Positions 4,943 through 23,776 of a stretch of DNA of 23,776 bases are shown one piece after another. The translations under genes and the position numbers were made by a program. Below the pieces are notes generated by a model, which was given only the letters and a program-made list of their open reading frames with translations, was not told the origin of the DNA and ran no database searches. The stretch is from Candidatus Hodarchaeota archaeon (lineage in GTDB: Archaea; Asgardarchaeota; Heimdallarchaeia; Hodarchaeales; YT1-039), in assembly GCA_016840025.1 (NCBI GenBank), contig JAEOTF010000501.1, positions 1-23,776 of the forward strand. The letters are read 5' to 3'. The stretch's first letter is position 1; the number at the start of each line of letters is the position of its first letter.

Positions 4943-5021
4943 AGTCCTCAGATATCAATATACTTAATCCCAAAAAATGTGACCTAACATCTAGAAAATA
5001 TCTCCCCTTTGAGATTAAAAC

Positions 5022-5062
5022 AAAGAAAAAAAAGAGAAAATGGTTCAAAAAAAGAAAAGAAA
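5022..5062 (-). terminator. T-rich terminator of the giant surface protein gene
   Basis: On the minus strand this stretch is a series of T-runs broken by single C or G, starting about 20 bases past the stop of the gene at 5085. Such oligo-T tracts terminate archaeal RNA polymerase without a hairpin. Confidence 0.45.
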
Positions 5063-5084: not shown

Positions 5085-8000
5085 TTAGTCACCAGGAGTC
5101 TTACGTTTGTAGTAATAGAAGTAGTACGCACCACCACCTGCAGCAGCACCAACGAGTCCAAGAACCCCTAAACCACCAATAACAGGAACGATATCAAAGC
5201 CGCCATCCTCAGGTTCTTTCAAAAGAGTTCCTTTGCCAATGTTAAACCCTGCAAGAAGATAAGTGCCGGTACCACCATCGGTATCCGTCGTAGTTGCAGC
5301 AATAATGTAACTACCATCCTTGAAATCTGTAGTATCAACAAGAAACATACCAAAGCCAGTGCCTGAGAAGACCATTGAGACTACAATCTCTGATTCTTCT
5401 ATATTCTTGTAATAGATTAAGCTAACATTACAATCCACTGCAACTCCATCTTCATGGTCCTCAAAGTAAACAGGTAACGAGAGAAAGTCTCCTTTATCAA
5501 CGTCCTCAAGGATATAGAATTCATAGACCTCATACTCCGGGGCATTTTCGATGTATGTCATCCATGCCACAGGTTTAATATTTAATCGTGGGATTAAATG
5601 CGATTTACAGTAATCTAAGGCCCAACTAACGCGATAAAAATCATCAAAAACAAGAATATTCCAATTATGAATCTGAGTAATATCTATCACGCGGAAAGAG
5701 CCTACATATTCACTGGTATTACTGTCATAAGACAGCTGTTGATAGAGAGCATTACTCTCAATATTTTCAGGACATAAGACTGTAAGTTCGGATGACTGAT
5801 CATCGGTTACATTGACTCGTACAGTGACCTTTTCACCAGGCGCTACATGCTCAGGGGTTACTTCTATTGAGTTAATGGTTGGTGCTTTGTTGGCAGCGGC
5901 ATGTAAGATATTTTCAATAAATTGGCGGTTATCAAGGTCAATATCGAAAGTCTGTGGGATGAACTTGTTCTGAGCAGCATATTGAAGGCTGAAGTAGCCC
6001 CAGACATCAATTTGTTCTAAGAACCAGCTTTGAGCAATGATATCGGTTCCTACAATGATTTTAGTGCCGTTATAGGTTTGTTGAAGAACGTTAGGTTCAT
6101 ATTTACCAGAATCATAACAGAATTGATAGGGATAAATTGGATCATGATAAATAAGAGCTATTTCCTGCCTAGTATTTCCAGTTTCCCAATTTAAACCTGA
6201 AATAACGTCGTAAGTAAGCTGGTCAAGGTAGTCCTGTTGATCCACTATCAAATAGCCACCACCAGTATAGAGTAAGTGATCTACATCTGAAAGAAGTGGA
6301 TGATCAGACTCGGTGCCATCAATAAGAGTCAACATCTCATTACCAGAGTCTGCATAAGTAACAGCACTGTTGATCTCTGGACCCAAATGAAAATCAGCGG
6401 TAAATTGGACTAAACTGCCCCCGAGTTCAAGAAAATCGGTAATAGTGGCATCTGTTGAGGACGTATCCAAACCAATGCCCAGTATACCAGCATATGCTAA
6501 TTCCTCGCCACAGGGTACATAAACATGGTAATCCAAGAAATTGGTGGTTGATATTGATACATGGTTTTCTATTTCATAGAGATACGTTTCTTGGTAGATT
6601 GAGTCAATATCATATCCTGCTTCACTAGCAATCTTCCAAACCTCGAACACCTGATCCCATAACTTATCATAATTTCGCTCTTCATTAATAATATCTGTTG
6701 CTACAAGGTCATACAGCAAGAAAGACGCTTCAGGTTCTTCTACAGTTAATCGAAGACTAATAGAATAGATAAGAGACGTGTCTGTATAAATACCGAGAGT
6801 ACCGCTATACACCGTTGCAGATGCAGTCGATGGAACATAAGTTTGTAGAACAAGACCAGTTAGTGTATGATTGTAAGAATCCAAGAGTAATGTGGTCGTT
6901 GATGCCCAGGTGTTATTATAATAGAAATAATCTGGGGCAATAGGATCATTACCCCTGTAGGAACCGAGACCAACCGAAGATTCAGCAAGATTACCCAAAC
7001 CAACCACAGCAGCTATACCACCACTAAGTCGGAGATCGGGGGATTCAATTGGAGTACTACTCATGAGTGTTAACCCATCAACCCGAAGATCACCAGGGAA
7101 CTGAGCAATTTTAGTGCTTGAAGTCGAGGTGAGGGTATTGGGAGTAATATCATAGAGAAGGGGAAGATCACCACGGCGCTCACTCTTGTTAATTCCATAA
7201 AAACTCGTAAATGCATCATCATAGTAACCTGGTATATCAAGCCCATAATCTGCTTGAATATTCAAATAGAGAGTACCAACTGCAAAACCAGGTGAGACCC
7301 AAGCATGAGTGAGATTGGAAGGGCGCCATACTACTACAGGTTCGAAGGTTTCTGTATTATTGATATCAGGAGTAAAACTCATAGTTATGGAGGTTTGTTC
7401 ATAGGAGTCTATAGTAGAGGCTTCAACCTGCTGAGTTTGCCCAAGGTTAGATGACAGATAAAGACCCAAAATTTGGAAATTGCTTACTGTTAGGTTTATG
7501 GTATCAGGAACAGAAATAGCGATTTTGTTATTGTATTGCTCTAGCTGATTTGGATGAATATTGTAATATAATTGAGCTGAACCGCCCACACTAATATTCG
7601 TTTCATAAAGGGGGCCAATATACTCACCATTGAGATAAAGTGTACATTCATCAGTTTGACGATCTACACCCCAGGCATCAAAATCTATATGGGGTATTAG
7701 GATCTGATCAACAGGGTAACTATCGGAAATATTATAGTAGAACTCGATTGTAGTATCCGTAACTTGTGCAGCGAAATCACCATCGGGATCGAAATCCCAA
7801 GTATCATTAGCGTTATCATGACCAGGTAAATCTAGCCTTCCATCTGCAGGCATATTATCTGCACCAGCACCAAGTACTTCAAGAGATGGGTTCCACCCCA
7901 TTCCAAAACCAACTAGGGGTTTAGTTGTAACGTTACCTATGTTTTCAAAAGTTAAATCCAATTCCCAAGTATCTCCATTAGTCATTAGCTTAGGACAACT

Positions 8001-10796
8001 GTAAGAAACTAACCAAGATCTCTCAAGTGGATTTCTAGGACCTGAGCGATAACTAACTTCTGCCAACCAGTAGAAAATGTTCATAGCAAAGTGGGAATTA
8101 TTATAGCGATGGGCTAGTTTAGGATCATAAGGATCTTTCCAGACTTCATCATTAAACACATCTTCGTCGGCAACAAAGACCGCCTGCCCACTGCCAAGTT
8201 CATCATAGACAACTGTAGGGACATTACCGTCATATACGATTGTAGGAGCGGAACCAGAGAAATATGCATAAGGAGCATCTATCAGTAATTCTGTGATAGT
8301 AAAAGGAGTAGTTAACACCGAATGACTGACGAAATTAGTGGTAGGTCCACCTACACCACCTTGGTGCCAGAACACATCAAAACCACTAGTAGCGGCGTCG
8401 TAATAACTAGCTTCAGCATCGCCGATAAAGAGGACTTTTCCGCCGTTATTTACATAAGTAGTGAGATTACCACTCAACCATTCATAATAAGAACTTGCGG
8501 AAGGAAGACTAAATGCACCATAATTTTGGGCAGCTAGCGGTTGACCAATCACATAGATGTCATAATATTCTAGAATCGTAGATGTTGGAGGAGCATTAGC
8601 GGATGCAGGATACCAGTATTCCACTATCGCCCCTAGATCATCATTCAATTTATCTGCAAGTAGGTCAAACTCAAAAGTCCCAAGGGAAGGTTTTTGTCCC
8701 TCTGCATAAAAGCGTAGTTGTACTGAGCCATATATTCCGAAAACCCCACTGCTTGCGGTTCCATCACCATCACTGTCAAATTCAAAGTAATAATAGTCAT
8801 CACCATTAACTAGACCAGCACTTCCAGTCCAATTTGTCGATTGGGTCATAACAATTGTAGGGTTGGGGTGATTGGGAGTAGAAGACCTATAGAGCGAAAA
8901 GGTATCACCACTCCCTAAAGTGATATTTGTAATGGTAAACCATACGCTATGGGTTCCTGGATAGCTTATATTATACCAATGAGAGCCACTAAGTACATCA
9001 TTGTACGGATGTTGCCATCCTGCAGCAACTCCAAGAGTTGTAAGGTTGCCATTGGTCAATCCATTCCAGTCACGGTATGAAGGGGGATCGGTTGGAGCAG
9101 TACTGGTGCTATAAGAGCCATCAAAAAGTATCCGTTTCCCTGAGAAATCTTCATAGGTTACAGGAGAAGTAGGATCAGAATAGGTCTGATAAGCCCCTAG
9201 ATAATTATCGGATTGAACTTCGGCAGTTTCCAATATGGTGTCAGAGCTGAGAAGACGGATTCTACCTTTTCCTTGAGCCATCTCATTAAAACCGAGATCT
9301 AATGCACCTTTTCTTAACGCTATTTTGATTGCAGTGGGAGATGCGCCAGGGTAGGATTCAATTAACCGAGCACTAGCACCGGCCGCAACAGCTGCAGCTA
9401 CTGCTGTGCCTGAGTAAGTACGATAATATTGTGTATCTGTCTCAGAACCTGGATCCCCTTCCCAACCGTAGTCAATTTGAGCCTCATTATCGGCAAATTC
9501 ATGATTAGCGGCTAACATATGAACTCCAGGTGCGACTACATCAGGTTTTGAAATTTCATAGCCAGGAACGGGACCACGTTCGGACTCTAACCAGAGTGCA
9601 TCAGTTTCTGTTGTAGCACCAACAGTTAATGCACTAGGAGCACTGGCAGGTGATCCTATTGTATAATAGGGAGCAATAGTGCCATCCTCATAATCAACAT
9701 CAGGATCGTAATCACCTGCAGGTACTACAACTAATGCACCAAGTTCAGTAGCTGCAGCAATAGCACTAATTACTGTAATATCTGAAGGATCCAAATTATC
9801 AGCATCAACTAGAATAACATCAGCCCCATGTGCAACTGCCCATTCTATTCCTACAATGAGACTAGTTTCAGTAAAAGATGTGCCAAGGGTAATTGTGATT
9901 TTTACATCTAAGAGAGAAACTTCAGGTGCAATGCCCATCTGAGTGCCAACATCTATCAAATCAGTTATGTTTTGAGTATCATAAGGAACATCTGAATCAT
10001 AGGGGTAAGGATACTGAAAGGTGATACTGTTTGAGAACTGTCCACCACAACAATCTGTACCTGCCACTATGGAAGCAAGAGCGGTACCCCAACCAATATA
10101 ATCAATCGTGTCATCAGTAATATCAGCATGCGCATAATCATAGGCATCAAAAGAATCTAAAATCTTGGGGTCAGCTGTATCATAATCATCATCCTGGTCA
10201 TCAAGCATAGGATGAGTTTCATTGATCCCTGTACTCAGAATTGCCACTACTACTCCTGATCCCGTCGTGGAATCACCGCTGGCTTCTATCATAGAACGGG
10301 TTTCGTTCAGAAAAAGAGGATATTCACCTATGTAGGGATCTTGTAAAGAATCAACAGCAGAAGGAGAACGACGATGGCCCGTACCCATCTCCATAACTTG
10401 GGAGACATAACGGAGCTCGGCAGCCTCGGAAACTTCTCCAAGCTTACAACTTACTTGCATCACCGGAATTAGATCAAAAGAGTGAACTACATCCACCCAT
10501 TCAGGAAAATCTGGTTGACGCTGATTCCAGTATACAAACAAATCAACAAGTGTTTCTGGATCTTCACCAGAATCAAGACGATTATTTATTTCTTTAAGGA
10601 AAGAACTGGATTCTTCCTTCAAGAAAGGCTGGTTTTGATCATAAAACTCTTCTAACCCCAATTCATCATGTGAAAAAGGGTTATTAGGAGAGTTATTTAT
10701 TGTACGAGCTAGTATAGTATCTAAAGCGGGTAAGCTCGCTAGAGAGATAATAGTAACAGTCAATAGGAGTAAGATGCTCATTCTTTTTATTTTCAA
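5085..10796 (-). CDS. Giant subtilisin-fold surface protein, catalytic residues lost
   Basis: The 1903-residue protein has an N-terminal signal peptide (basic KIKR, then a hydrophobic run to about residue 25). A peptidase S8-like fold spans about 180-500, and two flavodoxin/glutaminase-like segments embedded in beta-sandwich domains lie at about 730-950 and 1290-1600. A glycine-rich membrane anchor (IVPVIGGLGVLGLVGAAA...) ends in KRK. Subtilase landmarks are clear: GIAPEVSLLDVK, SKPDVVAPGV, GSPASAPSALTVGA. The catalytic positions are not kept. D-T-G is S-T-G (Ser188), G-H-G-T is G-W-G-T (Trp236), the oxyanion Asn in A-G-N is Asp362, and S-G-T-S is S-G-T-A (Ala465). I checked three of these codons (AGT, TGG, GCA) on the minus strand. 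It is probably displayed outside the cell and is rich in N-x-S/T sequons. The start is TTG 10796 with GGGTGA 8-9 bases upstream. Binding, adhesion or scaffolding is inferred. Confidence 0.9.
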   Translation of the reverse strand: MKIKRMSILLLLTVTIISLASLPALDTILARTINNSPNNPFSHDELGLEEFYDQNQPFLKEESSSFLKEINNRLDSGEDPETLVDLFVYWNQRQPDFPEWVDVVHSFDLIPVMQVSCKLGEVSEAAELRYVSQVMEMGTGHRRSPSAVDSLQDPYIGEYPLFLNETRSMIEASGDSTTGSGVVVAILSTGINETHPMLDDQDDDYDTADPKILDSFDAYDYAHADITDDTIDYIGWGTALASIVAGTDCCGGQFSNSITFQYPYPYDSDVPYDTQNITDLIDVGTQMGIAPEVSLLDVKITITLGTSFTETSLIVGIEWAVAHGADVILVDADNLDPSDITVISAIAAATELGALVVVPAGDYDPDVDYEDGTIAPYYTIGSPASAPSALTVGATTETDALWLESERGPVPGYEISKPDVVAPGVHMLAANHEFADNEAQIDYGWEGDPGSETDTQYYRTYSGTAVAAAVAAGASARLIESYPGASPTAIKIALRKGALDLGFNEMAQGKGRIRLLSSDTILETAEVQSDNYLGAYQTYSDPTSPVTYEDFSGKRILFDGSYSTSTAPTDPPSYRDWNGLTNGNLTTLGVAAGWQHPYNDVLSGSHWYNISYPGTHSVWFTITNITLGSGDTFSLYRSSTPNHPNPTIVMTQSTNWTGSAGLVNGDDYYYFEFDSDGDGTASSGVFGIYGSVQLRFYAEGQKPSLGTFEFDLLADKLNDDLGAIVEYWYPASANAPPTSTILEYYDIYVIGQPLAAQNYGAFSLPSASSYYEWLSGNLTTYVNNGGKVLFIGDAEASYYDAATSGFDVFWHQGGVGGPTTNFVSHSVLTTPFTITELLIDAPYAYFSGSAPTIVYDGNVPTVVYDELGSGQAVFVADEDVFNDEVWKDPYDPKLAHRYNNSHFAMNIFYWLAEVSYRSGPRNPLERSWLVSYSCPKLMTNGDTWELDLTFENIGNVTTKPLVGFGMGWNPSLEVLGAGADNMPADGRLDLPGHDNANDTWDFDPDGDFAAQVTDTTIEFYYNISDSYPVDQILIPHIDFDAWGVDRQTDECTLYLNGEYIGPLYETNISVGGSAQLYYNIHPNQLEQYNNKIAISVPDTINLTVSNFQILGLYLSSNLGQTQQVEASTIDSYEQTSITMSFTPDINNTETFEPVVVWRPSNLTHAWVSPGFAVGTLYLNIQADYGLDIPGYYDDAFTSFYGINKSERRGDLPLLYDITPNTLTSTSSTKIAQFPGDLRVDGLTLMSSTPIESPDLRLSGGIAAVVGLGNLAESSVGLGSYRGNDPIAPDYFYYNNTWASTTTLLLDSYNHTLTGLVLQTYVPSTASATVYSGTLGIYTDTSLIYSISLRLTVEEPEASFLLYDLVATDIINEERNYDKLWDQVFEVWKIASEAGYDIDSIYQETYLYEIENHVSISTTNFLDYHVYVPCGEELAYAGILGIGLDTSSTDATITDFLELGGSLVQFTADFHLGPEINSAVTYADSGNEMLTLIDGTESDHPLLSDVDHLLYTGGGYLIVDQQDYLDQLTYDVISGLNWETGNTRQEIALIYHDPIYPYQFCYDSGKYEPNVLQQTYNGTKIIVGTDIIAQSWFLEQIDVWGYFSLQYAAQNKFIPQTFDIDLDNRQFIENILHAAANKAPTINSIEVTPEHVAPGEKVTVRVNVTDDQSSELTVLCPENIESNALYQQLSYDSNTSEYVGSFRVIDITQIHNWNILVFDDFYRVSWALDYCKSHLIPRLNIKPVAWMTYIENAPEYEVYEFYILEDVDKGDFLSLPVYFEDHEDGVAVDCNVSLIYYKNIEESEIVVSMVFSGTGFGMFLVDTTDFKDGSYIIAATTTDTDGGTGTYLLAGFNIGKGTLLKEPEDGGFDIVPVIGGLGVLGLVGAAAGGGAYYFYYYKRKTPGD

Positions 10797-11148
10797 TTTC
10801 CATTCACCCTGAAAATGAGTTGTTCTTTCATTTACATTGCTTTAGATTAATAGTTTTCTTAATTCTTTAACCTTTTTACTTCTAAGAGATATCCCAAAAG
10901 CTTGGAAAGAAAGGGATATTGAATACAGTGAGCGTATTTTTGATCTTTCTATTTAAAACATGAGAAAAAAATTCAAAATTCATCAATAGACTTTATAATT
11001 TTGATTTAATAGTGATATATTTCGTCTAATAGGAATACAAAGAAAAAAGAAGAGAAAAGTCGGTGTTAAATAAAACTAATAATATATTAATGTGGTATCC
11101 TATCCTCAGTCTCTAATGTTTACCTTTCCTCTCTTATAGGTGATCTTT
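10797..11148. promoter_or_regulatory. Divergent promoter region between surface protein and GTPase
   Basis: No gene is seen in this AT-rich spacer. A TATA-like AATATATTAA (11081-11090) would place initiation near 11110 and give the GTPase mRNA a leader of about 40 bases. A second AT-rich block lies near 11010-11030. A promoter for the minus-strand gene is not obvious. Confidence 0.35.
11138..11143 (+). promoter_or_regulatory. Shine-Dalgarno deciding the GTPase start
   Basis: AGGTGA followed by TC matches the anti-Shine-Dalgarno and lies 5 bases before GTG 11149. The GTG inside this motif (11140) also opens the frame, but it is part of the binding site, so 11149 is the likely start. Confidence 0.7.
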
Positions 11149-11868
11149 GTGGCTCAGACAGAAGAGCTTATCTCACACGCAGAAGAAGTAAAGGGTATCA
11201 AAATCGTCTTTTGGGGACCATCGATGAGCGGAAAAACCACTGCTCTTTCTATTTTCCATGCCATCAAAAAACGAGAAGACCCAAATCAAGTATATGACTT
11301 CTTAAAACTCGAAGATAAGAAAACACGGCGAACAGTAGGCTTTGATCACGCGGTGTTTGGTTTTGGGAAGAAAATGGGCGCAGATGGCCACGATATGAAA
11401 TATCATCTCTTTACCGTACCTGGACAGGATCGTTTCAAGGCAATGCGAAAGGTAGTTACACAGGGACTTGATGGACTCGTTATTATGGTTAATAGTGAGA
11501 AAACTGAGTGGGAAGCAAATAAAGAAAGCCTAATAGAATTGTTTAAGATCCTGGGAGAAGAAATAAGCAATGGAACGATCGCAATCTCAACCATGCTCAA
11601 TAAAATGGACTTACCTACCGATCAACGAATTACAAGTATGGATGTTGGTAAATTAATGGTCGAGGCGGGCGTTTCTGACCGATTGAGAGATACCCATGCT
11701 AATTTGATCGAGACAAGCTGCAAAGATGCAGTGGAAGATTTGAAAGCCCACATCAAATCTGGGGTTGAAATGACTCCTGATAACAGACCTACAAGCGTTT
11801 CCAGGATTATTCAGCCAATACAAATGATAATGAGAGAAATACTCGTAAAAAAATTAGGGAAGAAATAA
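11149..11868 (+). CDS. Small Ras-like GTPase, MglA/Arf type
   Basis: This is a 239-residue GTPase. Motifs in order: P-loop GPSMSGKT (23-30), switch II TVPGQDRF (89-96), the strand DGLVIMVNSE (108-117), and the base-specificity motif NKMD (151-154). ETSCKD probably forms the G5 loop. In switch II the usual DxxGQ Asp is Thr, giving T-V-P-G-Q, a hallmark of bacterial MglA polarity GTPases and their archaeal relatives. No lipidation Cys is seen at either end. The C-terminal ~50 residues extend beyond the GTPase core and end in a basic amphipathic helix (REILVKKLGKK) that might touch the membrane. A regulatory or polarity role is likely for the family; its effector is unknown. The KaiC-like ATPase follows after 91 bases. 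Confidence 0.9.
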   Translation: MAQTEELISHAEEVKGIKIVFWGPSMSGKTTALSIFHAIKKREDPNQVYDFLKLEDKKTRRTVGFDHAVFGFGKKMGADGHDMKYHLFTVPGQDRFKAMRKVVTQGLDGLVIMVNSEKTEWEANKESLIELFKILGEEISNGTIAISTMLNKMDLPTDQRITSMDVGKLMVEAGVSDRLRDTHANLIETSCKDAVEDLKAHIKSGVEMTPDNRPTSVSRIIQPIQMIMREILVKKLGKK

Positions 11869-11908
11869 GAACAATTCAATTTAGCTATTTTTATTTATCA
11901 AATATTTT

Positions 11909-11940
11909 CAATAATTAATTACAAAATGAATTGATTATTG
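11909..11940 (+). repeat. 12-bp inverted repeat (hairpin) before the KaiC-like gene
   Basis: The arms CAATAATTAATT and AATTGATTATTG flank the 8-base loop ACAAAATG. They pair fully as RNA, with one U-G wobble. The stem ends 5 bases before the GGGG ribosome-binding site at 11946-11949. It may end transcription of the GTPase or shape the leader of the ATPase mRNA. Confidence 0.6.
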
Positions 11941-11959
11941 TAAAAGGGGAAAAAAGATT

Positions 11960-12838
11960 ATGTTGAAGTCATCTGGAGTTTCTGTGTTGGATGTGGCGCT
12001 ACCTGAGGGTGTACCTCGACGAGCATTCATAATTGTTGGTGGCGAAGCAGGAACGGGAAAAACAGTGCTATTGACAGAGCTGGCCTGGCGCGCTCTAGAG
12101 CGAGGCGAGCATGTTATTTATGCTATTCTTGAGAATGATCCGTTGGCAGTACTAACTCGCTTTAAGCGAATGAAATGGGATCTTGAGTCTTATATCAAAC
12201 AGAAAAAGTTCACCATTTTTGATGGGTTTAGTCATCTCTTAGATGAAACATTAAGAAAGCGGAGACCAATGGCATCTCCTAGGGATGATTTGCTAAGGGA
12301 CTGTGTCACCCGTTTCGATCCAACTCGTAGGACAACCATCGTAGATACCTTCTATAATATGCTTGAGTCTATCTTGGACGCGGGAGAAAAAGCATTTATC
12401 GTTTTTGATTCACTTACAGAATTATTCTCCCTTTTACCAGGTGAAACATTCTTTAATGCCCTTAAACAGTTACGAGCAATGATGTTACGGGCATCAACCC
12501 CCTTTATATGCTCTGCCCACTATGGAGTCGTTGAAAAGTTTCCATCAACTATTAGTTATCTAGCAGATGGCTTAATTGACTTAAGATTTCAGCCACAACT
12601 AATGCAACAGGGAATCTTGGTCAAACAAATTCGTATACGACGAATGAGCGGAGTGAAGAGTTTTCCGATTTGGTTAACATTCGATGTTGAACACGGGACA
12701 GGAATAATTTTGACTCTAGATTATGCTCGGAAAGTTCAGGAAGAAATGAAACAGATTCTTTATGGGCAGGGTATAACACCGGGAGATCTACGATCGCCTG
12801 AGTTGCCACCCGAATCCGAGGATAGAATAAACCAATGA
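11960..12838 (+). CDS. KaiC-like RecA-superfamily ATPase
   Basis: This is a single-domain 292-residue ATPase of the KaiC/GvpD/RadA-related group common in archaea. Walker A is GEAGTGKT (28-35) and Walker B is FIVFDS (146-151). The segment after strand 2 reads YAILENDP where classic KaiC has a double-Glu (EE) site, so one catalytic Glu is replaced by Asn. The strand IRRMSGVKSFP and the following FDVEHGTGI correspond to the KaiC C-terminal hairpin. The KaiC CII domain and the phosphorylation-site Ser/Thr pair are absent. Family members act as signalling ATPases, often with partner proteins; no partner is certain here. GGGG lies about 10 bases before the ATG. The gene is followed after 36 bases by kptA, so they may be one operon. 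Confidence 0.9.
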   Translation: MLKSSGVSVLDVALPEGVPRRAFIIVGGEAGTGKTVLLTELAWRALERGEHVIYAILENDPLAVLTRFKRMKWDLESYIKQKKFTIFDGFSHLLDETLRKRRPMASPRDDLLRDCVTRFDPTRRTTIVDTFYNMLESILDAGEKAFIVFDSLTELFSLLPGETFFNALKQLRAMMLRASTPFICSAHYGVVEKFPSTISYLADGLIDLRFQPQLMQQGILVKQIRIRRMSGVKSFPIWLTFDVEHGTGIILTLDYARKVQEEMKQILYGQGITPGDLRSPELPPESEDRINQ

Positions 12839-12874
12839 TTTAGAGACTTTTTAGCCTACCAAACAACAAGCAAA

Positions 12875-13465
12875 ATGAATTCACGGTTAATGGATAAACA
12901 TCAGAGGATACGGTTGAGTAAACTCCTCTCTGCTGCTCTACGACATCACCCTGGAATTTTAAATATAGTATTATTGCCCGATGGGTTCGCAGATCATTCG
13001 CTTAACGAAATTGTCCAACTTATTAGGGAAAGACGAGGTTATCACTGGATTACTGTGGATCATCTCCGAGAAATCGTTCAGTTTGATCCAAAAGGACGCT
13101 TTGACATTGTTAATGACCGATTACGGGCAAAATATGGACACAGTATTAACGTGATGGTACCTCTCGAAATGACTGAACTCCCACCATTGCTATATCACGG
13201 AACAACTACACAAGCCTATTCTTCCATTCGGAAAGAGGGATTACGCCCCATGCAGCGTAAATTTGTGCATCTTACTTTCTCAATTCAGGATGCACAGACG
13301 ACAGCCCTTAGAAAAGGAAAAGAGATTATTATTCTTGAAATAAATGCCAGAGAATTAAGCAAACGAGGGTATGAGGTAAAGAAAGCTGGAAAAACTGTAT
13401 ATGTAGTTCCCGTTGTGCCGTTGGAATTTCTGTCTGTAGCAAGGATTTCAAAAAAGCCAATATAA
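12875..13465 (+). CDS. kptA: tRNA 2'-phosphotransferase KptA/Tpt1
   Basis: KptA/Tpt1 removes an internal RNA 2'-phosphate by moving it to NAD+, giving ADP-ribose 1'',2''-cyclic phosphate. In eukaryotes this is the last step of tRNA splicing; in archaea the substrate is uncertain. The protein has the normal length (196) and both domains. The N-terminal winged helix carries LSKLLSAALRHHP (Arg23, His24) and DPKGRF. The ADP-ribosyltransferase-like domain carries LRAKYGHS (Arg84), LYHGTT and GLRPMQRKFVHLT (Arg128). The Arg-His-Arg-Arg catalytic set therefore seems intact. ATG 12875 is taken as start; ATG 12890 is also possible, and neither has a clear Shine-Dalgarno. Probably co-transcribed with the KaiC-like gene. 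Confidence 0.94.
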   Translation: MNSRLMDKHQRIRLSKLLSAALRHHPGILNIVLLPDGFADHSLNEIVQLIRERRGYHWITVDHLREIVQFDPKGRFDIVNDRLRAKYGHSINVMVPLEMTELPPLLYHGTTTQAYSSIRKEGLRPMQRKFVHLTFSIQDAQTTALRKGKEIIILEINARELSKRGYEVKKAGKTVYVVPVVPLEFLSVARISKKPI

Positions 13466-15179: not shown

Positions 15180-15722
15180 TTGACTCGCGCTGTTGAAGCC
15201 ATCACTGCTCAATTTAAAGAATTAGCTTTGTCTCATAAATTCTCTAAGGCAATTGAAGATGCTTTTATCTTAGCTTTAACTTCTCACGAAGGACAGACCC
15301 GTAAATTTTCTAATGAGCCCTATATTATGCATCCACTTCGTGTAATGCAAAAGTTATTGCCATTGAATCCAAGTGATGAACTTCTCATCACAGCGCTCCT
15401 TCATGATGTGGTAGAGGATACTGCTACGACTCTTAAAGAAATTGAGACACAATTTGGCTCAAAAGTTGCAGCAATGGTAAAAGGGCTAACTAAAACAGGT
15501 AAAGAGTCACCGATTATAATTTTAGAAAGAGCAGCCCAAAAAACCCCTGAGGTATTACTAATTAAAATTAGTGATAGATTGGATAATCTTACAGACATAG
15601 ACAAATTAGCTGAAAAAACCAAACGGCGTTACGCGACAGAACAACACCAACTGCTCGAACTAATTGAAAAGTTCAAGATTGAAGGCTCTCTTATAGAAGA
15701 ACTAAAGAAATCCCACTTTTAG
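15180..15722 (+). CDS. Stand-alone HD hydrolase of the SpoT/MESH1 type
   Basis: This 180-residue protein is only the metal-dependent HD domain of Rel/SpoT proteins. Bacterial domains of this kind remove pyrophosphate from (p)ppGpp; the animal homolog MESH1 also acts on NADPH. Motifs: SHEGQTRKFSNEPYIMHP with metal ligand His51, LLHDVVEDT with His75-Asp76 and catalytic Glu79-Asp80, and KISDRLDN with Asp132. The 24-residue spacing from His51 to His75 matches RelSeq. No synthetase or TGS domain is attached and none is elsewhere in the window. TTG 15180 is taken as the start because GGGG lies 9 bases before it and the next Met is at residue 50. It is cytosolic; the substrate is uncertain. Confidence 0.9.
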   Translation: MTRAVEAITAQFKELALSHKFSKAIEDAFILALTSHEGQTRKFSNEPYIMHPLRVMQKLLPLNPSDELLITALLHDVVEDTATTLKEIETQFGSKVAAMVKGLTKTGKESPIIILERAAQKTPEVLLIKISDRLDNLTDIDKLAEKTKRRYATEQHQLLELIEKFKIEGSLIEELKKSHF

Positions 15723-21282: not shown

Positions 21283-21502
21283 TAATCAGTCCTACGTAAC
21301 GAATTGTGTTCGATATCCAGATGGATTTCGGGGTTTTAACACTAGTGATTGGAGACGAATACGTCTTATTCGTCAGGCTCCGTACTACTCTTATACTATT
21401 CAGTTTAAGACCAAACCATCTGGCATACCCATTCATTTCGTATTCCCTGTTGAACCTGCTGATTTAATTTTCATAAAAACGGATAGTGATGACGAATTAT
21501 GA
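21272..21502 (+). CDS. Small beta-rich protein upstream of the secreted protein
   Basis: The TTG start at 21272 is preceded by GGGA (7 bases). The 76 residues are rich in aromatic residues and strands (WRRIRLIRQAPYYSYTIQFK, IPIHFVFPVEPADLIFIK) and end acidic (DSDDEL). There is no signal peptide or membrane helix. The stop overlaps the next ATG as ATGA, so it is translationally coupled to the secreted protein. No family recognised. A real start farther upstream, through a frameshift with the 32-residue ORF, is possible. Confidence 0.5.
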   Translation: MINDNQSYVTNCVRYPDGFRGFNTSDWRRIRLIRQAPYYSYTIQFKTKPSGIPIHFVFPVEPADLIFIKTDSDDEL

Positions 21503-23776
21503 ATCATCTAAAGTTTGATAAAAAAAGTAAGTCTAGTCTGTTACTTTTGTTAACTCTTTTACCTTTAATAACTGGTTTTGTGAAGATAGCCCCTGCGTCT
21601 GGTGCTCCTACCTTCGAATGGGATTTAGATCAACATGGTTTAGGAGATGACGACGATGAAAAAATGATTGTTTTTATTCAGCATGAAGAAACAGATATAT
21701 GGTGGCAGGCATTTTATTTCGTTAATGACGCGCCTAATTCGGGATCTTTTAGTTGGGCACCTGACTATATGATTATTGTGACAACTGATTCCAATAACGA
21801 TGGGCATTTCAGCAATTGGGATCTAGAGAAGGTTTCTTGGCGTTATAGTGGTGGAATGTGGCTTGAGGAGACTTTTCCTAACCATCCCGAAGACTTTGAA
21901 TTTGGTCCTCCGGGAAGTGATACCAATCATGCGGTAGCAGTAATATGTTTGAACGATATGGTTTACGGAGTAGAGTATGAGTTTGGTTATAATGAACAAT
22001 TATCTAGATTACTTGTAAAAACTCATCGAGATGTGGGGGACTATCAATTTGATAAAAATTGTATTAATTCATATGTTAGAGAAGCGCTATGGAATTTTAT
22101 GAAAACTGGAACAGGTGGTACTGGTGAATATGATCTTGGGAGGATAAGAGATATCTTCGTTAATTATCCTAATCTTGAAATAAGTTATGACGGGCCTTAT
22201 AATTCAGGAACGGGGTGGTATAAAGGAACGGGTAAAATAAGCATAACAGCAAGTGATCCTGAAACTGATGATGTATCCACATCAATCTATGCAGGAATAT
22301 CTCAAACAGATGATAGAATCAATGGTGGTCCTTGGTACACATATAATGGACCGTTTTCTTATTCATGGCCCATAACTCTAGAAGCTAGAACTTTTGATAA
22401 ACTTAATCATAGGACTTATCTTACTAAATCATTCAATATTGATCCCTATCCGCCTACTACTTCAATAAATATCCAGGGGACAAAACATTCAGTCGGGAAT
22501 TGGTATGAGAGTGATGTTCTAGTAAGTTTATCTGGATCTGACAGTCATTCAGGAGTAGCAAAAACTGAATATAGAATTAATTCGGGGACTTGGACGCAAT
22601 ATACCGCCCCTATTCTTTTAACAGCAAATAACGTTTATAACATAGAGTATAGGTCTATTGATAGAGCTAATTGGGTAGAAGGCACAAGGACAGTACAAAT
22701 ATGGGTGAATAAAGGTGCGAAAAGTATAATGTGGGAATCACCATATGAAGGGGAAGAGGTGATTTTTGGATGTGATAGCTCGTTATTCAATTTTAGTTAT
22801 AGCTATTATGGAATTGATACTGTCAAATTATTTATTAATGGACATTCTATGGGTTCTTGGACTCCCTCTACGGATGTGATCAGTTGTGAGTTACCGTTCT
22901 ACGATACCCGTATAGATGGACCTGTAACGGCGGAGCTAAAGGGATATGTTTCCAATGTGGAAGTATCAAGTGATATGCGTAATTTTGTCTTCGCAAAATT
23001 TAGTGCGCCTCCAGTTTATGAGCACATTGAGACTAATACAGAAATTATTCCTGAGCTTCTGATGTTTATAGCCCATGATCCATCGGGAGATCACTCCTAT
23101 TCCTACATAACTGAATCCTCAACAATGTCTGTTGCAGTGAAGTGTGAAAATACGAATTATACTACGAATAGTATTGAGATGGGCTTTGATTATTCCTATT
23201 TGGGTGTTAGTGTAGTTGATACGAGTTTAGAGATTACAGAGACAACAGCAACTACAGAAGGGTATGATTATAAGTATGTGTTAGAACAAATGCAGAGCGT
23301 TACATCAGGTCAATCACAAGATCCAGAGTATTTAGGACCTGGGTTCGGAGATATATATTATGGAAATGCAGCGGTATTCGTCTGGAGCCTCTATGCTACC
23401 TATATCACTTTTGTAAATGGCACTTCAAAACATATTTGCCCAAAGATTGTGTATTATCTTAACCGGACTGCAGAAGTAATGGTTCCTCATTCTATAGCAC
23501 CAACAGACTGGCGTTCCCTTAACCCCGTCTTCAACAACTATCAGAATTGTGAGTTTTTTACATCGAAATTTTATACCGGGGGTGGTGGGGAAGAATACTT
23601 TGAACAAGTCTCCACTTCAACTACTCGAAGTCAATTGATTACTATCAACGCAAAAACGAGTGCAGGAGCGAAATTCTTTGGTATAGGGGGTAAGATGACT
23701 GTAGATGTACAATCAAAGAATTATAATGAGCAGTCCCAAGGTCATTCGATAACTGTAGGCTATTTTGTTAAAGATG
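21499..23776 (+). CDS. Large secreted protein with OmpL47-like repeats, 3' end cut by the window
   Basis: I translated this frame by hand: it is open from ATG 21499 to the window end (759 codons). A signal peptide (KFDKKSKSS, then LLLLLTLLPLITGF, ending near PASGA) is followed by an acidic beta-domain (residues 37-170) with an Asp-rich turn (TTDSNNDGHFS). Two Ig-like repeats follow at about 228-314 and 315-405. The second has the OmpL47 pattern TEYRINSGTWTQYTAPILL...YNIEYRSIDRANWVEG. A further Ig-like domain and a C-terminal region from about 515 follow, with YLGPGFGDIYYGN near 611. The last visible segment is Ser/Thr-rich, with alternating strands around a Gly-rich turn (AGAKFFGIGGK). It is probably extracellular. 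The start overlaps the preceding stop by 4 bases (ATGA). Confidence 0.8.
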   Translation, partial: MNHLKFDKKSKSSLLLLLTLLPLITGFVKIAPASGAPTFEWDLDQHGLGDDDDEKMIVFIQHEETDIWWQAFYFVNDAPNSGSFSWAPDYMIIVTTDSNNDGHFSNWDLEKVSWRYSGGMWLEETFPNHPEDFEFGPPGSDTNHAVAVICLNDMVYGVEYEFGYNEQLSRLLVKTHRDVGDYQFDKNCINSYVREALWNFMKTGTGGTGEYDLGRIRDIFVNYPNLEISYDGPYNSGTGWYKGTGKISITASDPETDDVSTSIYAGISQTDDRINGGPWYTYNGPFSYSWPITLEARTFDKLNHRTYLTKSFNIDPYPPTTSINIQGTKHSVGNWYESDVLVSLSGSDSHSGVAKTEYRINSGTWTQYTAPILLTANNVYNIEYRSIDRANWVEGTRTVQIWVNKGAKSIMWESPYEGEEVIFGCDSSLFNFSYSYYGIDTVKLFINGHSMGSWTPSTDVISCELPFYDTRIDGPVTAELKGYVSNVEVSSDMRNFVFAKFSAPPVYEHIETNTEIIPELLMFIAHDPSGDHSYSYITESSTMSVAVKCENTNYTTNSIEMGFDYSYLGVSVVDTSLEITETTATTEGYDYKYVLEQMQSVTSGQSQDPEYLGPGFGDIYYGNAAVFVWSLYATYITFVNGTSKHICPKIVYYLNRTAEVMVPHSIAPTDWRSLNPVFNNYQNCEFFTSKFYTGGGGEEYFEQVSTSTTRSQLITINAKTSAGAKFFGIGGKMTVDVQSKNYNEQSQGHSITVGYFVKD

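Follow-up and report, generated by a model that had tools for sequence, protein, structure and literature searches.

The stretch of DNA analysed here (the window, 23,776 nucleotides) encodes on its minus strand a giant protein of 1903 residues, which keeps the fold of a peptidase S8 (subtilase) domain and lacks its catalytic set, as do all S8-bearing members of its family. We propose, with a probability of about 0.58, that this is an anchored surface recognition or scaffold protein that carries out no proteolysis, its subtilase domain serving as a rigid non-catalytic module frozen in the pro-form; the data suggest a former enzyme turned into a binding or scaffold part. The features of the gene and its product are as follows.

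5085..10796, minus strand: whole ORF, 1903 aa, TTG start, TAA stop
10707..10796, minus strand: signal-peptide-like N terminus, residues 1-30 (by eye)
10377..10556, minus strand: I9-like propeptide region, residues 81-140 (model 1; pro-subtilisin alignment)
10263..10376, minus strand: linker with conserved GEYPLFLNET, residues 141-178 (family alignment)
9297..10262, minus strand: peptidase S8 domain without catalytic set, residues 179-500 (PF00082)
10233..10235, minus strand: Ser188, catalytic Asp column (HMM alignment; Ser in 19/19)
10089..10091, minus strand: Trp236, catalytic His column (R 14, W 3, M 2 of 19)
9804..9806, minus strand: Asp331, substrate-strand Ser column, SLGG strand lost (D 17, N 2 of 19)
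9711..9713, minus strand: Asp362, oxyanion Asn column (Asp in 19/19)
9402..9404, minus strand: Ala465, catalytic Ser column (A 15, S 3, V 1 of 19)
8040..9152, minus strand: GATase/GIFT-like domain, residues 549-919, with a CUB-like module inserted
8709..8987, minus strand: CUB-like seven-strand module, residues 604-696, inside the GATase/GIFT-like domain (strands in model 2)
5877..8039, minus strand: beta-rich regions and a low-confidence alpha/beta region, residues 920-1640 (model 2)
5247..5876, minus strand: conserved C-terminal part, residues 1641-1850, Ig-like by eye (conserved in family alignment A1)
5109..5195, minus strand: hydrophobic segment followed by KRKTPGD, likely membrane anchor, residues 1868-1896 (by eye)
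5014..5062, minus strand: T-rich tract past the stop, possible archaeal terminator

Translation of the minus strand from 10796 to 5085 meets no internal stop in 1903 codons; the database copy, P0002, starts at Met6 of the window ORF. The product is acidic (265 D+E against 77 K+R) and contains 24 sequons; together with the signal-peptide-like N terminus and hydrophobic C-terminal segment recognized by eye, this composition suggests that the protein is probably located at the cell surface. Other family members end similarly, with the same type of hydrophobic segment. For the terminator given in the preliminary description, the T-rich tract is a possible candidate of archaeal type; a stem-loop terminator was looked for and was not found.

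Catalytic columns of the S8 domain

The Pfam model PF00082 matches residues 179-500 with E 3.4e-28. In an HMM alignment anchored on L003, a bathyarchaeal protein that reads D-H-N-S at the catalytic Asp, catalytic His, oxyanion Asn and catalytic Ser columns, residues 188, 236, 362 and 465 of the window protein occupy these columns as S, W, D and A. The plain S8 signatures and the changes to Ser188, Trp236, Asp362 and Ala465 that had been read from the DNA alone are thus confirmed. All 19 S8-bearing family proteins, window copy included, read S-[RWM]-D-[ASV] (SRDA 11, SRDS 3, SWDA 2, SMDA 2, SWDV 1): Ser stands in the Asp column and Asp in the Asn column of 19/19, none of the 19 keeps the His, and the Ser is lost in 16/19, three members retaining it. 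The PF00082 match and the subtilisin fold place these proteins in S8 by homology, and the full set of Asp/His/Ser plus oxyanion Asn is found in 0/19. Among the remaining protein hits outside the family, 131 rows read D-H-N-S in a tally of rows with all four columns, which leaves out split rows such as P0134; the first residue of the substrate strand is Ser in 130 of these 131; 17 family members carry Asp there and 2 carry Asn. The first reading of a dead protease fold stands, and a binding, adhesion or scaffold role, as suggested with it, is possible; that the former cleft binds peptides has become less likely, given that the substrate strand has lost its Ser too.

A one-off mutation is rejected by the same replaced columns across the 19 S8-bearing members; the close homologs have no normal triad, which is found only in more distant full-length relatives. 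A relocated triad is likewise rejected: no second conserved His is present in the S8 part of A1, no intact triad was found elsewhere in the domain, and in the structural comparison the modelled domain aligns like any ordinary subtilisin. The protein might still be an enzyme with switched chemistry, using another nucleophile or a metal site built from the new Asp residues, and the Asp at the oxyanion column together with the Asp or Asn of the substrate strand (each 19/19) do provide new conserved polar or acidic positions in the cleft. We nevertheless consider this very unlikely, as the His column varies (R, W, M), the Ser column varies (A, S, V) and the S8 part offers no second conserved His. 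Sedolisins use a Glu/Asp/Ser catalytic set and carry Asp at the oxyanion column; none of the rows compared has this set or pairs the oxyanion-column Asp with Glu and Ser, and sedolisin-like catalysis is rejected.

Family, constraint and origin

A search of about 5.8 billion proteins returned, in addition to the window copy, 17 relatives (45-68% identity) that are long or nearly full-length, followed by a gap to ordinary subtilases. Their sources name them Promethearchaeota, Thorarchaeota, Heimdallarchaeota and Hodarchaeales archaea, and it is in the sense of these given names that we call the family Asgard. A profile search adds P0122 (37% identity) and P0123; P0018 is a fragment without the S8 region. 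Several family proteins are labelled 'S8 family serine peptidase' by their sources, and inferences on Asgard peptide metabolism may, because of this name, take them for secreted proteases. A scan of genome contigs gave three loci, two of them family members (titled Heimdallarchaeota and Hodarchaeota) and the third the 2254-aa Bathyarchaeota protein. Among 227 Asgard-phylum genomes, with two candidates scored per genome, full-length family matches occur only in G001 and G002 (3284 and 2810 bits; next best 118).

Conservation was measured on 16 rows of A1, without the fragments P0018 and P0019. The S8 region, residues 179-520, is the most conserved of 11 regions compared, with a mean pairwise identity of 0.652 and 105/342 positions invariant. 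It is followed by residues 701-920 of the GATase-like domain (0.613; 56/220 invariant), and the region with the CUB-like module, residues 545-700, stands at 0.442 with 8/156 invariant. The best-conserved domain is therefore one without catalytic residues, which argues that the gene is not decaying, as the preliminary description had held. A decaying or misassembled copy is refuted by this conserved family, whose members sit on many different contigs and whose loci in G001 and G002, checked as DNA, contain no internal stop; no evidence in its favour was found, and we give it almost no credence.

The large acidic ectodomain with its sequons and hydrophobic C-terminal segment would also suit a structural envelope glycoprotein, S-layer-like or a spacer, in which the S8 fold is a mere building block with no specific ligand. 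We regard this as rather improbable, since conservation is highest in the S8 region, beyond what a spacer needs, and full-length matches in 2 of the 227 genomes are too patchy for a general S-layer. A further alternative, which we judge unlikely, is that the protein regulates active subtilases: unable to cleave and with its propeptide still attached, it would partner, titrate or inhibit catalytic paralogues. Such partners would be at hand in G001, a family genome with 11 S8 matches; its other loci with all four columns aligned, L004, L007, L009, L011, L013, L015 and L017, read D-H-N-S, L019 and L023 being only partly aligned. CspC and CspA, which work with CspB, provide a precedent (PMC6636752, PMC12880746). 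However, this alternative leaves the separately conserved giant GATase-like and CUB-like parts superfluous, and no conserved gene pairing accompanies it: the neighbours of the giant gene are not shared between the window and loci L001 and L002. A blastp comparison of ORFs of these two loci with the window gave a single match besides the giant protein, an aldehyde ferredoxin oxidoreductase paralogue in L001.

The neighbouring phosphomannomutase-type gene has matches in 35/227 Asgard-phylum genomes at E 1e-60 with a best identity of 39%; the source lineage is therefore not closely sampled. Elsewhere in the window, two small minus-strand ORFs (1532-1861 and 1854-2132) look by eye like tandem paralogues. 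Divergent from the giant gene, the plus strand encodes consecutively an Arf/Ras-like GTPase, a KaiC-type ATPase and a Tpt1/KptA RNA 2'-phosphotransferase (11140-13465), and further on a stand-alone HD_4 domain protein, possibly a small alarmone hydrolase (15180-15722). A large plus-strand ORF with a signal-peptide-like start (21499-23775) runs past the window end and may encode a surface protein; it has no Pfam match at E 0.001.

The closest architectural relatives with an intact triad are themselves giants. L003 (Bathyarchaeota B26-1, 2254 aa) and, from protein searches, P0030-P0033 and P0124 read D-H-N-S and, judging from these residues, are assumed to be active. From the propeptide through the S8 domain and into the regions beyond, they align with the family over most of their extent; a profile built from four of these proteins matches A1 over columns 78-1855 (1563 columns, probability 100, E 6e-102), and the GEYPLFLNET linker has counterparts in P0033 and L003. 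They differ in having the D-H-N-S set and an SLGG/SFGG strand, and in lacking the CUB-like module of the family at that place, save for one weak P0033 match. When the four trait columns are masked, a tree built from 69 S8 domains places the family and the intact-triad giants on one branch (100/99). This near-whole-length alignment and the shared branch therefore indicate that the giant architecture was already in place when the catalytic set was lost, and the family offers a clean natural case of a transition from enzyme to non-enzyme, with a conserved fold lacking the catalytic set and intact-triad relatives that share the architecture.

Predicted structure and proposed role

Model 1 has a mean pLDDT of 72.6 (moderate confidence), with values mostly of 82-89 over the propeptide residues 81-140 and below 50 in its stretch 87-102, the expected place of the cleavage-site linker. 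Its best structural match is an unautoprocessed pro-subtilisin, propeptide included, and the model range 23-461 (model residue 23 being residue 82) aligns to whole unprocessed pro-forms. An I9-type propeptide is thus predicted to pack on the S8 domain as in pro-subtilisins.

Model 2, with a pTM of 0.45, is weaker than model 1. The GATase/GIFT-like domain (residues 549-919) resembles chains of the OST complex (OST48/Wbp1) and site-1 protease. Foldseek matches of model 2 that were long but loose, BcsB among them, had TM-scores of about 0.1 and were set aside. The inserted CUB-like module is present in one copy in 16 of 20 family proteins, in two copies in one (P0019) and in three copies in three (P0006, P0013 and P0122). 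Behind the CUB label stand two weak Pfam matches that miss the cut-off, both in relatives (E 0.0037 for L003 and 0.011 for P0033); family proteins have no Pfam CUB match.

Site-1 protease (MBTPS1) is an active protease, and differs in this from the family, which has no active S8 triad; no MBTPS1 Pfam model matched the family. Four D-H-N-S proteins of about 1250 aa (P0022, P0050, P0056 and P0060) combine an S8 domain with a GATase/GIFT-like domain downstream of it and a zinc ribbon at the C terminus, and are possible archaeal counterparts of the site-1 protease architecture; P0050, P0056 and P0060 have weak MBTPS1_4th matches (E 0.005-0.04, below the cut-off).

We propose that the giant protein is secreted and presents a C-terminally anchored ectodomain in which the subtilase domain would no longer cleave peptides. 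As autocleavage would not take place without catalysis, the propeptide would stay covalently attached and, on the predicted structure, cover the old active-site face as a frozen pro-form. The S8/propeptide unit and the GATase/GIFT-like core would then present the faster-evolving CUB-like module of variable copy number, the CUB-like/GIFT region may bind an external ligand (a glycan, a protein or a neighbouring surface), and the C-terminal segment would anchor the whole. The retained Ser in 3/19 members, the uninformative gene neighbourhood, the moderate or weak models and the weak Pfam matches behind the CUB label count against this proposal.

The frozen pro-form is consistent with the pro-subtilisin structural match and with a precedent in CspC of Clostridioides difficile, whose propeptide stays uncleaved. 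According to PMC6636752, the CspC prodomain is not autoprocessed owing to triad substitutions, and the protein acts as a sensor. CspC and CspA resemble the window family in having a subtilase fold with a degenerate catalytic set; as described there, they differ in being soluble, in having two catalytic residues changed and in carrying a jelly-roll insertion. A second source presents the CspC:CspA complex as a signalling node (PMC12880746), and in a survey of five prokaryotic serine protease families 42 of 966 homologues are given as inactive (PMC2605481). No paper on Asgard pseudo-subtilases was found among the literature matches listed, a set drawn largely from outside subscription journals and preprint servers. 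The family draws attention to a group of Asgard surface proteins that has received little study and might be relevant to contact between cells.

A second clade of Asgard S8 proteins

Other Asgard genomes hold S8 proteins that read D-H-D-A, D-H-D-T, D-R-D-G, S-E-D-A and similar. Asp occupies the oxyanion Asn column in 21/28 survey loci outside G001 and G002; the best 30 full-length hits to a second-clade family of about 1465 aa read DHDA (17), DHDT (10) and DHDS (3), and 20 further, hand-chosen regions comprise 15 with Asp in this column and 5 reading D-H-N-S. Combined, Asp is found in 66/78 loci and 60/69 Asgard genomes, a sample that is not random, having been drawn from 227 genomes through best hits and selected regions. 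The Ser column keeps its Ser in 5 of the 66 Asp-bearing loci, and we do not call these five dead.

Like the window family, the second clade has the oxyanion-column Asp, has lost the substrate strand and usually lacks the Ser. In contrast, only the propeptide and S8 domain are common to both (370 columns), the second clade is separate in the trees, and it keeps the Asp and often the His. All S8 trees are unrooted; the first holds 114 of 154 rows, 40 far (mostly bacterial) or duplicate rows having been dropped, and the masked-column tree holds 69 hand-picked rows. The dead rows fall on one side of one branch in 0/200 bootstrap trees of the 69-row tree. One common clade was put to an AU test, the group having been defined with a tree already in view: p was 0.031 for 72 of the 114 first-tree rows and 0.105 for 69 rows with more groups. 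Trees and architecture favour two separate losses, without proving them.

We tentatively extend this to a broader possibility, which we consider less likely than not. Two or more inactivations of secreted subtilases may have taken place in Asgard archaea, each starting from a different ancestor with an intact triad and all following one course: the oxyanion Asn became Asp, the SLGG strand disappeared and, usually, so did the Ser. The propeptide-clamped fold would have been kept as a platform for recognition at the surface, in proteins also equipped with GATase/GIFT-like domains like those of OST48 and site-1 protease. If so, a non-proteolytic S8-GIFT receptor class would be a widespread and unrecognised part of the Asgard cell surface.

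Asp at the oxyanion Asn column is found at loci L028-L039, L041-L048, L052, L054-L083, L084-L096, L101 and L103, many of them with a C-terminal GATase/GIFT-like domain; to the second clade we assign P0058, P0061, part of L028-L048, L054-L096, L101 and L103. One internal stop each interrupts the matched stretch of the second-clade loci L056, L076, L080 and L082. The second-clade proteins P0058 and P0061 show, by eye, a transmembrane segment and a helical tail.
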